From positions 1 to 34,771 of IMG/VR virus record IMGVR_UViG_3300021376_000186: DNA of 34,771 nucleotides. One strand, 5' to 3'. Shown piece by piece: positions 3,508 to 8,987 of the stretch; positions within the stretch are counted from its first letter, which is position 1, and each line of letters opens with the position of its first letter. This DNA is from a virus. The notes under the pieces are model-generated. The model made no database searches. It had not been told where the DNA came from and saw nothing but the letters and a program-made list of their open reading frames with translations. The translations under genes were made by a program, and so were the position numbers.

Positions 3508-3714
3508 TTGACGGATGCAGTCAAGGGTTTTGCGAGTCATATGGGTATGAGCTGCCTTTATCTAGGTGCAGTCGACAAGGGGGTTGGCTTCTACGAGAAA
3601 TTAGGCTATGAGCCTGTAACGCTAGCAGAATGTCCCGAGGATTTTCAGAAACCGCTAACAAAGATTACAGAGGAATATCAAAAAGAGGAGCACCCGTATA
3701 CAATTGCTCAGTAG
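3508..3714 (+). pseudogene. GNAT acetyltransferase C-terminal fragment
   Basis: The open frame reads TDAVKGFASHMGMSCLYLGA then KGVGFYEKLGYEPV. The pattern of a helix, a strand and the FYEKLGY turn is the C-terminal part of a GNAT N-acetyltransferase. The acetyl-CoA loop (R/Q-x-x-G-x-G/A) and everything before it are missing: the frame opens only at 3463, right after a stop, and the sole initiators are a TTG at 3508 and later ATGs. It is therefore a remnant or a highly reduced protein, not a working acetyltransferase. Confidence 0.6.
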
Positions 3715-3847
3715 ATGAAACTGGATCTTTAGGGCATTACATCAAGACAAATTAAAAATTACTTACACGACGACTGGCAATTAGATCTCAGACATCGACG
3801 ACTCCGTTTGTGACTACAAGTTTGAGATAGAGGTTGATCCTTCGGAC

Positions 3848-4012
3848 ATGTCTAGTCATCAACTATTTTCAGTGTTCTCTAAAGTCCTCTCCGCGATGGG
3901 TTATGGCGAGTTTTCGATCACGAAAGGTGCTTGTGGTCTTGCTTTCAATGACATGAGAGACATGGAAATGATGGACAAACTTGTCAAGGAGTACGAATTA
4001 GCGGAAATTTAA
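3848..4012 (+). CDS. small acidic protein, possibly the remnant of a longer gene
   Basis: The ATG at 3848 gives 54 residues (MSSHQLFSVFSKVLSAMGYG onward). The same frame is open and protein-like further upstream: before the Met stand DDSVCDYKFEIEVDPSD, and before a TAG at 3782-3784 stands KITYTTTGN. Read together this looks like one gene of about 85 codons interrupted by an amber codon and lacking a normal start. Either only the short C-terminal part is made, or the gene is decayed, or the TAG is read through. No family recognised. Confidence 0.45.
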   Translation: MSSHQLFSVFSKVLSAMGYGEFSITKGACGLAFNDMRDMEMMDKLVKEYELAEI

Positions 4013-4088
4013 CAAGAAGCGGATACTGTCAGAAAGCGTAAGGAGATACATAAAAGCGTAAACTGTAGTAGCAAGGAGAATCAGGGCT

Positions 4089-4415
4089 ATGAACCTGGCT
4101 GAGTATTACTTCAGGCATGTGATCCCAACGGGATGGAGGGGTATCCGCTCCTCTTTTCGTATGTGGAAGGACTTAATGGCCGGAAACTATGATGATTATG
4201 TCTTACTAAAAGAGGATGACCCGTTTGAATCCTGTCAGGATTGGTTTTGGTTCTCTTTGGGTGAGGACGAAACGCTGCCAAAGGACTTTTTAGAGTATCT
4301 GCAAGAGCAAATGAGTGAAATCGATGCAGGTAGGGTTGAATTGGTGCCATTTGACCTAGAAAGGGCGCTTGAAATTAATGAACTTCTCCATGGTGAAGAC
4401 GATGGGCATGTTTGA
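4089..4415 (+). CDS. hypothetical protein (108 aa)
   Basis: Starts MNLAEYYFRHVIPTGWRGIR, 108 residues, acidic and aromatic-rich (CQDWFWFSLGEDETLPKDFL). AAGGAG lies 10 bases before the ATG, the best ribosome binding site of this cluster. The gene opens a chain of overlapping small genes up to 5585. The following gene starts 14 bases before this one ends. I recognise no domain. Confidence 0.7.
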   Translation: MNLAEYYFRHVIPTGWRGIRSSFRMWKDLMAGNYDDYVLLKEDDPFESCQDWFWFSLGEDETLPKDFLEYLQEQMSEIDAGRVELVPFDLERALEINELLHGEDDGHV

Positions 4416-5585: not shown

Positions 5586-5589
5586 ACGG

Positions 5590-5595
5590 TATAAT
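5590..5595 (+). promoter_or_regulatory. -10 box for the riboswitch transcript
   Basis: A consensus TATAAT stands about 17 bases before the riboswitch P1 stem, as expected for a transcript starting near 5602. The -35 (GTTCGA at the 17-base spacing) is poor. Confidence 0.55.
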
Positions 5596-5611
5596 AGGTT
5601 ACGTTCACCCC

Positions 5612-5697
5612 TATTGGGGCGGAAGTAAGCCGACGCGGAACGGATCGTTCATTCGCTATTCGGAAACAGCGAACGCACACGCCGACTGAAGGAACGC
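5612..5697 (+). promoter_or_regulatory. glutamine riboswitch (glnA / downstream-peptide class)
   Basis: The diagnostic elements occur in order: P1 5' strand CGTTC (5612-5616), P2 CCCC-TATT-GGGG (5618-5629), the conserved CGGAAGTAAG right after it, and CTGAAGGAACG closing P1 (5686-5696). The segment between carries an extra hairpin (TTCGCT / AGCGAA). Known family biology: these RNAs bind L-glutamine and occur in cyanobacteria and cyanophages upstream of nitrogen-metabolism genes or short peptide genes. The P3 pairing does not resolve cleanly by eye, which fits the downstream-peptide subtype better than classic glnA. The gene it controls starts 28 bases downstream. Confidence 0.85.
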
Positions 5698-5724
5698 TCT
5701 TTAACCCTGTTAAGGAGATTCGTC

Positions 5725-5877
5725 ATGTCGATTGCCACTTATCGTGGTGTCAAATACGACATCAGCGTGCCCAAGGAAGAGTACAAAGCATGGTGGAATC
5801 AAATCCATCATGATGCTTCTCGTCATCTGGTCTACCGTGGACAGGACTATCGTCCCTGTCAAACCTCTAAGTCGTAG
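5725..5877 (+). CDS. YRG-motif peptide under glutamine riboswitch (50 aa)
   Basis: Translation gives MSIATYRGVKYDISVPKEEY, a central AWWNQIHHD, then LVYRGQDYRP near the end, 50 residues. Two YRG-x-x-Y motifs, one at each end, are typical of the cyanobacterial DUF4278 group. As I recall, that domain also occurs in PirA, a small protein that binds PII and controls arginine synthesis, but I cannot confirm homology from sequence alone. AAGGAG lies 8 bases before the ATG. The riboswitch upstream makes expression depend on glutamine, so a role in host nitrogen control during infection is the leading inference. Confidence 0.75.
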   Translation: MSIATYRGVKYDISVPKEEYKAWWNQIHHDASRHLVYRGQDYRPCQTSKS

Positions 5878-7991: not shown

Positions 7992-8620
7992 AATCAGGTG
8001 AATACGGAGAGCCAATTGATTTCTCTGAAATCTATTGGTTTTTGAAATTCACCTTCCCAGGCGATACGGAGTTTACATTTGAGAGATACGGCGAATTACC
8101 ATATATCTATGTCTTAGAGGCATATGAAAATGGATTGAGAATAAATAGAAAAAATCTTCACTACTATGAAGCGCCACACGCTCTTCAGACATCTATACTT
8201 GCCAATATTAATAGAGATCCTAAAAAGAATCGCAAACCCTTTTCTTTTGAGGATTTCTGTATGTATTTATCTTTAGAGGATAGAGATATTCCAAGTTCTG
8301 AATTCGGATCAGCGGCAATGGTGTTGATCGAAAAAAGAATCTTTCCATCATGGGCTTTATTTGCATACAAAGATCTTAAGAGTGCAGCCTCTGGGCTGCC
8401 GCCAGATGTCCTTGCTTATTTGTCAGATGATATTATTATTTTGGCTCCACAGATTTCCGAAGGTTCTGTTAAAGGTATGATGATAGCAATGCAAAAAGCA
8501 TCTGGAAAATTAAGATATCTGGAATCACCCTGTCATAAACAAGTAATCATTAAAGTACCAAAGTTTGACGGTAAATTTTATTGTTGTGAAAATGTAGTGA
8601 TTGAATTAATTACTGGTTAG
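7988..8620 (+). CDS. tail assembly chaperone extension (T-like, 210 aa, made by frameshift)
   Basis: This is the -1 frame continuation of the gene at 7464. The fusion would have 175 + 210 = 385 residues. The junction reads KVESGEYGEPIDFSEIYWFL and runs smoothly into KFTFPGDTEFTFERYGELPY, so the region before the TTG at 8042 is coding. In lambda the T part recruits the tail tube protein onto the G-coated tape measure, and the same role is inferred here. The extension includes a helical middle and two cysteines near the end. Its last 11 bases overlap the convergent HNH gene. Confidence 0.8.
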   Translation, partial: VESGEYGEPIDFSEIYWFLKFTFPGDTEFTFERYGELPYIYVLEAYENGLRINRKNLHYYEAPHALQTSILANINRDPKKNRKPFSFEDFCMYLSLEDRDIPSSEFGSAAMVLIEKRIFPSWALFAYKDLKSAASGLPPDVLAYLSDDIIILAPQISEGSVKGMMIAMQKASGKLRYLESPCHKQVIIKVPKFDGKFYCCENVVIELITG

Positions 8621-8987
8621 AATTGTATTGAAGAATTTTTCCTGTATTAAGCCATTCATCAATCCTTTCTTCATTAATCAAGGAATAAAAATTTTGCAGT
8701 CTATACCAAGACCTCCAATCCAAGCTACCTTTTGAATGGTTGCATGATTTGCATGCGGGAACACAATTACTTGTTCGATCTTTACCTCCTCGGCTTTTAG
8801 GTCTAACGTGATCAACAGTTAAACTTTTCTCATCAATTGGAGGGCTGTTGCAATAAGCGCATCTGTTGTTCCATGCCTCTTTAATACTATTACGCCACAA
8901 TCGTTTGGCTTCTGTTGTTGTCATTGCCTCAAGATTAAAAAGGTATTCGAAAGCCTTCTCTCGAAGGGGAATAATCTGATTAATCAT
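8610..8987 (-). CDS. HNH homing-type endonuclease (125 aa)
   Basis: The product has CAYCNSPP (zinc pair 1), TVDHVRPKSRGG (the HNH catalytic His with preceding Asp), NCVPACKSCNHSKG (Asn, zinc pair 2 and the final H/N), the full order of a small HNH nuclease of 100-180 residues. It should cut double-stranded DNA near its own insertion site. It is encoded against the direction of all neighbouring virion genes and its 3' end invades the chaperone stop codon, as expected of a mobile, free-standing endonuclease. No intron boundary is visible. The ATG at 8987 has no clear ribosome binding site. Confidence 0.9.
   Translation of the reverse strand: MINQIIPLREKAFEYLFNLEAMTTTEAKRLWRNSIKEAWNNRCAYCNSPPIDEKSLTVDHVRPKSRGGKDRTSNCVPACKSCNHSKGSLDWRSWYRLQNFYSLINEERIDEWLNTGKILQYNSNQ

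Follow-up and report, generated by a model that had tools for sequence, protein, structure and literature searches.

The DNA analysed here is a 34,771-base virus record of IMG/VR (IMGVR_UViG_3300021376_000186, positions 1 to 34,771; the whole stretch is referred to as the window), and the subject of this analysis is a plus-strand leader in which a promoter-like -10 element precedes a glutamine riboswitch aptamer and a short open reading frame (ORF) for a DUF4278-like peptide (Table 1). The major capsid protein of the window is 67-69% identical to those of the Synechococcus phages S-CBS2 and S-CRES1-3, which we take to be siphoviruses, and phrog matches include a major head protein, a tape measure protein, an endolysin and a DnaB-like helicase. 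The source is probably a phage related to the Synechococcus siphoviruses, a cyanophage.

An earlier note on this DNA had read the leader as a glutamine-binding RNA of the glnA/downstream-peptide kind, and the elements it quoted are in place: TATAAT (5590-5595), CGTTC (5602-5606), CCCC-TATT-GGGG (5608-5619), CGGAAGTAAG (5620-5629), CTGAAGGAACG (5686-5696) and, 28 nt after the aptamer, a 50-residue ORF with two YRG motifs (5725-5877; YRGVKY and YRGQDY). When the whole window was compared with 4227 Rfam families using cmscan, the single match at gathering level was RF01739, the glnA or glutamine-I family (5600-5700, plus strand, 43.7 bits, E 1.7e-6, gathering 35). This half of the assignment holds, while RF01704 (downstream-peptide, glutamine-II) remains below gathering in the window. 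The stretch 5600-5700 is thus confirmed, as far as sequence comparison reaches, as a glutamine-I riboswitch aptamer. In structures solved for this aptamer class, glutamine makes contact with C1:G59, G22 and C58, and the pocket is closed by a long-range pair (PMC6698751); a 61-nt construct of the aptamer is described separately (PMC5393176). The closing pair is numbered 23:60 here, a correspondence suggested by sequence alignment. All of these pocket elements occur in the window sequence, and the RNA would be expected to bind L-glutamine.

Table 1. Features of the leader and its gene in the window
Feature	Positions	Strand	Basis
-10 element TATAAT	5590-5595	+	Sequence; transcription probably starts at ~5601-5603
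NtcA-type box GTA-N8-TAC overlapping the -10 element	5589-5602		Sequence; box in relatives
Nested glutamine riboswitch aptamer, with outer core and permuted inner core	5602-5696	+	RF01739, model R1, covariation
P1 5' strand CGUUC, pairs with 5692-5696	5602-5606	+	RF01739 alignment; unprompted in RNAalifold; invariant, so without covariation evidence
P2 hairpin CCCC-UAUU-GGGG	5608-5619	+	4/4 pairs changed on both sides in alignment A1
J2/3 CGGAAGUA; G5622 is nucleotide 23, partner C5697 (nucleotide 60)	5620-5627	+	23:60 counts
P3 5' strand AGCCGACG, pairs across the insert with 5680-5687	5628-5635	+	Last pair G-C 27, U-A 18 of 45 cells
Inner P1' GAACG-GAU-CGUUC, permuted P1 with closing loop	5638-5650	+	Pairs kept in 48/48 rows, invariant; RNAalifold unprompted
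Inner P2' hairpin UUCGCUAUUCGGAAACAGCGAA; ORF-sized loop at the same site in 65/129 relatives	5652-5673	+	6/7 pairs changed on both sides
Inner J2/3 equivalent CGCACA; C5676 pairs with G5643	5674-5679	+	Inner 23:60 counts
P3 3' strand CGCCGACU, J3/1 GAAG, P1 3' strand	5680-5696	+	RF01739 match, covariation
Predicted expression-platform hairpin CUCUUUAAC-CCU-GUUAAGGAG burying the Shine-Dalgarno sequence AAGGAG (5712-5717)	5697-5717	+	9 bp, minimum free energy (MFE) fold of the window
50-residue DUF4278-like peptide, YRGVKY and YRGQDY, 28 nt 3' of the aptamer	5725-5877	+	PF14105, phrog_5049

Scanning IMG/VR with the window peptide gave 49 viral loci, and in 48 of them the peptide is preceded by the aptamer core CGGAAGTA..GAAGGAACG (two with an extra A), the remaining locus being truncated by its contig end and retaining the 3' half of the core. 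This recurrence, together with the gathering-level match to RF01739, led to the rejection of a plain chance match. RF01739 reaches gathering in 24 of the 49 loci (11/20, 12/20 and 1/9 in three sets), and the others likely fall below it because of the length of an insert in the aptamer. A pattern scan of viral sequences for this insert gave at least 120 stretches, and 129 distinct nested cores were parsed from the window and loci L001-L170 and L291-L298; all counts over these cores apply among the matches listed, which are a sample whose copies are linked by common descent (L002 is nearly identical to the window). A pattern scan of genome contigs gave mostly chance matches and was uninformative. 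The parser required the conserved words and restricted nucleotide 23 and its inner counterpart to G or C, leaving nucleotide 60 and the inner loop base free, so that the pair counts below are conditional on this rule. It recovered the nested form in 42 of the 49 peptide loci and in 105 of 120 pattern-scan loci. By eye, six of the 15 unparsed pattern-scan loci are cut by contig ends, three (L060, L076 and L114) have an insert in the inner P1' loop, five are close variants (L073, L103, L108, L122 and L124) and one, L169, matches by chance; nucleotides 23 and 60 are again G and C in the eight complete loci.

The 56-nt insert of the window aptamer is a conserved module that reads AGCCGACG-CG-GAACG-GAU-CGUUC-A-(hairpin)-CGCACA-CGCCGACU. 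P1' of the insert is built from GAACG and CGUUC, the two strands that form P1 in the aptamer, with their order reversed and a 3-nt loop between them, and downstream of P1' follow a P2-like hairpin and a CGCA element resembling the J2/3 junction of the aptamer. Because of this reversal, the hairpin and the CGCA element, the insert can be read as a circularly permuted copy of the core, connected to the outer one by the P3 stem that both share. Sequence equivalents of the pocket contacts of the outer core exist in the inner core. A covariance model of the nested form (R1), trained on 48 rows of which the window is one, gives 106.5 bits at 5602-5696. The training rows (alignment A1) are 48 of 52 cores lacking ORFs, with L004, L007, L032 and L112 left out for their long hairpins. 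The nested structure leaves 92.0% of cells paired in A1, with 106 doubly changed cells compared to 28.5 +/- 4.5 in shuffled alignments and at most 14 in slid controls. P3 contains one pair changed on both sides, and in the wider set other P3 pairings occur as AGACAACG/CGUUGACU, AGCCAACU/AGUUGACU and AGUCG/CGACU. RNAalifold recovered P1, P2, P1' and P2' unprompted.

The series CGUUC..GAACG twice over could also be read as two ordinary glutamine aptamers in tandem. Such an arrangement has precedent in 157 reported tandem doublets (available sections of PMC9481103), the P1 strands are interchangeable, and at E ≤ 1 the phage S-PM2 gives RF01704 (24.6 bits) and then RF01739 (33.3 bits), both below gathering. 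The pocket pairs decide against it: in the tandem reading both fail in 114 of the 129 cores and both fit in 10, whereas the nested reading fits both in 121, and P3 covaries across the insert. The outer 23:60 pair is G:C in 122 copies and C:G in seven, and so is paired in all 129; its inner equivalent is C:G in 118, G:C in two, G:U in one and unpaired in eight, all of which have a 4-nt loop with G at the third place. Plain cellular aptamers have G:C at 23:60 in 33/33 matches (from partly redundant loci) and in the 15/15 parsed among 17 further long copies. Two tandem aptamers are rejected on the 23:60 pair and P3 and are considered very unlikely, and the comparison supports a structure in which P3 ends in a second, permuted glutamine-aptamer core, with the two cores facing each other across one helix.

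The outer aptamer may sense glutamine alone, with the inner module a degenerate duplicate retained solely to cap P3 structurally or to hold hairpins. The inner core is without the AGUA/GAAG junction of the outer core, and the module is dispensable in that six of the 49 phage loci do without it. On the other side, the inner closing pair swaps from C:G to G:C (two copies) or G:U (one), and the inner sequence hardly varies among freshwater and marine phages. Sensing by the outer aptamer alone is a serious contender, at somewhat less than even odds.

For the ORF downstream, the earlier note had proposed a relation to DUF4278, and the profile comparison agrees with it in E value (PF14105, E 1.8e-4) and falls short of it in score, as detailed below; the peptide also matches phrog_5049 (E 1.9e-7), and a marine relative reaches 25.4 bits against PF14105. 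An alignment of relatives (A2) combines 25 phage proteins of the window and IMG/VR loci with two from phage isolates and two cellular ones; of its 29 rows, 28 match DUF4278 at E ≤ 0.01, and the lowest E value (3.7e-13) belongs to a cellular row. An AlphaFold2 model of the peptide has a predicted local distance difference test value of 77 and a predicted template modelling score of 0.43; neither this model nor that of the ORF nested in relatives' aptamers (below) has a PDB match at E ≤ 0.001, and the profile of the peptide alignment finds nothing at E ≤ 1 among PDB sequences. Of the ORFs 3' of nested cores, [YW]RG is present in 125 of 127 readable copies and absent in two, and two more run into contig ends. 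In L085 and L162 (and by eye in L122 and L130) the nested riboswitch is followed by a short lysine/glutamine-rich ORF without YRG. DUF4278 is described, in the text available from two reports, as the N-terminal part of the glutamine-synthetase inactivating factor IF17, the product of gifB (PMC6316151, PMC11288750). The window ORF ends shortly past its second YRG repeat, cellular IF17-type proteins extend further, and the C-terminal inactivating segment is absent from the window peptide. The further step in the earlier note, that the peptide is a PirA-like partner of PII, is not borne out. The peptide is similar in size, and pirA is likewise NtcA-repressed in the passages available, but no tie between PirA and DUF4278 was found in the accessible portions of the open-licence PMC literature, and a PirA identity was set aside as very improbable.

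Directly 3' of P1, a predicted hairpin pairs C5697-C5705 with G5709-G5717 (-8.2 kcal/mol, or -5.5 with C5697 blocked) and buries the Shine-Dalgarno sequence. C5697 is shared with the aptamer, where it serves as nucleotide 60, and the competition between hairpin and pocket for this base suggests that the leader would act as an ON switch for glutamine. Among relatives, 74 of 76 distinct spacers have a recognisable Shine-Dalgarno sequence (two have none by the rule used), with a mean paired probability of 0.85 compared to 0.65 in shuffles that preserve base composition only, and the probability exceeds 0.8 in 55 of the 74 leaders. The opposite direction, in which the folded aptamer stacks on the adjoining hairpin, stabilises it and so turns the peptide OFF, draws on the placement of the hairpin directly after P1. 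Against it, C60 is claimed by both structures and the characterised members of the glutamine-I and glutamine-II classes are reported as ON switches in the portions of the literature available, which leaves OFF control unlikely. An extension of P1 with GGUUA (5597-5601) was considered as part of the switch and dropped, as it is by eye unconserved.

Transcription may be subject to a second nitrogen signal. Among 122 distinct phage loci that extend 100 nt or more upstream of the aptamer, 110 have a GTAN8TAC box in the 120 nt before it (mean of 5.15 and maximum of 12 in approximately dinucleotide-preserving shuffles). The boxes start mostly at -58 to -62 or at -38/-39 and in 13 cases, the window included, at -13/-14. 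The box at 5589-5602 overlaps the core promoter, as in an NtcA-repressed promoter. The NtcA boxes of the host genes gifA and gifB are centred at -30.5 and -7.5 and are repressing (available text of PMC6316151), and pirA has a distal box at -48.5 (available text of PMC8092223). Judged by its position relative to the host gif boxes, the window box would mediate repression by NtcA. Several relatives also have an inverted repeat flanking the -10 element that seems, by eye, to covary (GAGG-TATAATAAT-CCTC or GGGG-TATAATAAT-CCCC in L059, L079, L081, L100, L106, L109, L110, L116 and L119; GGAG-TACACTAAT-CTCC in L090).

In 386 Cyanobacteriota genomes, sampled around a Vampirovibrio locus and thus including many that may be non-photosynthetic, 10-14 candidates per genome were scored in covariance searches. 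RF01739 was found at E ≤ 0.001 in 71 genomes and over its cut-off in 61, the inner-module pattern in none of the 386, and the nested model gave weak matches of ~55 nt in four, each equivalent to the plain aptamer. The P3 region measures 10-20 nt in the 33 parsed of 34 cellular loci (partly redundant); of 17 further long cellular copies 15 were parsed, 14 with a P3 of 11-13 nt and a long P2 and one with 35 nt, and none of the 15 contains the inner word CGGAACG. Since the inner module occurs in phages and in none of these genomes, it looks, within this sample, phage-made from a host part. The genes that follow the cellular riboswitches examined are IF17-type, IF7-type or DUF4278-only, with a few other ORFs besides.

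Several known systems share features with the window. The glutamine-I class (the glnA motif, including the Synechocystis gifB leader) has the same outer core with CGGAAGUA and GAAGGAACG, the P1-P2-P3 junction, a downstream DUF4278 gene and an NtcA box, and differs in that P3 of the phage copies carries the permuted second core. Glutamine-II RNAs share CGC instead of CGG at the closing pair, as seen in most inner and seven outer cores, and control short DUF4278 peptides in marine picocyanobacteria, but have a pseudoknot architecture. The N-terminal domain of IF17 (GifB) and PMM1846 of Prochlorococcus are likewise DUF4278 under a glutamine riboswitch (PMC6316151, in part), whereas the phage peptide has two YRGxxY repeats and no inactivating-factor C-terminus. 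Glutamine riboswitches have been described in phages (Melnitz, Mosig and T4-like cyanophages; PMC9004378, PMC9964418, PMC9602691), with no nesting, embedded ORFs or DUF4278 target found in the available sections of these descriptions. Tandem glutamine riboswitches also place two cores before one gene (PMC9481103, in part), whereas in the phages the second core is permuted and inside the first. No description of nesting or of ORFs inside a glutamine aptamer was found in the accessible open-licence PMC literature. It should be noted that, according to the part of the tandem-riboswitch review available, overlapping matches were discarded as false positives (PMC9481103), so nested cases could have been hidden.

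In many relatives the loops of the aptamer hold genes. An ORF-sized loop replaces P2' in 65 of the 129 distinct copies, P2 in 25 and both in 14; in the window P2' is a hairpin and not an ORF, as it is in S-PM2. The isolates S-E7 and Syn30 carry a nested ORF. The P2' ORFs encode 50-55 residues (with one shorter exception) and belong to phrog_504, a small cyanophage family of unknown function, while the P2 ORFs encode 66-73 residues and end 2-14 nt before CGGAAGTA. Nearly all P2' ORFs (75 of 76 instances) stop in J3/1, at the UGA of CUGAAGG in most and at UAA in two isolates (CUAAAGG). The median pairwise ratio of nonsynonymous to synonymous divergence (dN/dS) is 0.255 for the P2' ORFs (61 proteins, 10 of 965 pairs above 1) and 0.32 for the P2 ORFs (22 proteins, 1 of 230 pairs above 1), both rough values as dS is high in many pairs. 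A comparison of the two ORFs with hhalign gave E 3.5e-4 and a probability of only 37%. A tblastn search with the P2' ORF returned 31 phage records, of which 14 loci were taken, the other records carrying the same phages' names; all 14 of these isolate loci, and the lake phage DSL-LC03 as well, have the ORF within the nested RNA and the YRG peptide after it. In L336 (ACG-2014j, 351-512) a phrog_504 ORF inside the riboswitch is intact yet unannotated.

A third site is used in L076 and L114, where the inner P1' loop opens into a 196-residue ORF that likewise ends at the J3/1 UGA. The L076 protein (3531-4121, minus strand) matches the homing-endonuclease family phrog_314 (E 8.6e-6) and the HNH family phrog_10820 (E 4.2e-9), with no Pfam match. 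L060 looks by eye like a deleted remnant of such an insert. These nuclease-like proteins fit the idea that the aptamer loops merely offer insertion sites to mobile genes, much like group I introns, and that the embedded ORFs have no regulatory meaning. This possibility is weighty, a little under an even chance, and is opposed by the common P2' ORF, which by any match found is not a nuclease, and by the 75 of 76 P2' ORFs that end at one exact codon. A hairpin, TTCGCTATT..AATAGCGAA, recurs in P2 or P2' (the window sequence at 5652-5673 is a variant) and was absent outside these riboswitches among 58 matches. A free mobile repeat, UUCGCUAUU..AAUAGCGAA, was rejected, as the scanned loci have no copy of it outside the riboswitch; of its 58 matches, 31 lie directly 3' of CGTTCA and the contexts of the remaining 27 look like such a site on the opposite strand. 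Elsewhere, group I introns (RF00028) occur ~1.3-2.1 kb upstream of the riboswitch in L015 (659-1544), L021 (260-1138) and L026/L027 (609-811), and an HNH endonuclease gene on the minus strand of the window (8610-8987) is flanked by forward-strand genes.

Taken as a whole, the preferred reading, to which we assign a probability of about 0.72, is that the leader is a host-derived unit, copied from host gif genes, that gates the DUF4278 peptide by NtcA and glutamine through the nested aptamer. When nitrogen is scarce NtcA would block the promoter through the GTAN8TAC box over the -10 element, roughly at the -7.5 position of host gifB. Once transcribed, the leader would fold into the glutamine-I aptamer with the permuted second core at the end of P3, glutamine being the presumed ligand. 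Without glutamine the hairpin would bury the Shine-Dalgarno sequence; with glutamine C60 (C5697) would be taken by the 23:60 pair, weakening the hairpin and allowing translation. The 50-residue peptide, resembling the IF17 N-terminus without its C-terminus, may then act, at times of ample glutamine, on nitrogen assimilation by the host. Many relatives additionally hold protein genes in the loops of the aptamer. The nested permuted core, the NtcA box, the hairpin using nucleotide 60 and the aptamer ORFs of relatives all go beyond the earlier note.

Several observations weigh against this reading. For the fold, P1 and P1' are invariant in A1 and offer no covariation evidence, RNAalifold does not predict P3 unprompted, the MFE structure of the window is without P1, and P3 contains conserved C.A and A.C mismatches (A1 columns 45x104 and 48x101, window 5630x5685 and 5633x5682), each unpaired in 45 of 48 rows. 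The inner core, lacking the outer junction, may be structural only, and the six loci without it (L003, L005, L021, L023, L024 and L038) have a plain aptamer or an unrelated P3. For the ON direction, a single one of the nine hairpin pairs is contested by the aptamer, and burial probability is at or below 0.8 in 19 of the 74 leaders. For NtcA, the window box occupies the weakest of the box positions, and at -13 is weak evidence by itself, as the box ends on the base with which the aptamer begins; furthermore, cyanophage NtcA boxes were read as activating by Sullivan et al. (PMC3037559, in part). For the target, the window peptide scores 22.2 bits against PF14105, 3 bits short of the Pfam gathering threshold (25.3), and some cellular riboswitches precede genes without YRG, so that the link to this gene is not exclusive.

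A more far-reaching interpretation is that cyanophages have evolved a new riboswitch architecture, in which a permuted glutamine-binding core inside P3 makes a two-site sensor and the RNA serves as a chassis for genes, with the stop of the P2' ORF in the ligand junction. As translation of the inner gene and folding of the sensor would be mutually exclusive, one RNA could switch reciprocally, with the inner gene expressed at low glutamine and the DUF4278 peptide at high glutamine. This interpretation is put forward tentatively and is judged less likely than not. If true, nesting a permuted aptamer would be a new route to an RNA sensor with two sites, and placing ORFs within a ligand-binding aptamer would couple translation to the sensing of the ligand, for which no prior description was found. 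The family phrog_504 gains a genomic context, as all 14 isolate loci from the tblastn list place it inside the nested RNA. The leader of the window provides a concrete example, open to testing, of a phage that senses host glutamine and, probably, host NtcA using parts of host type.
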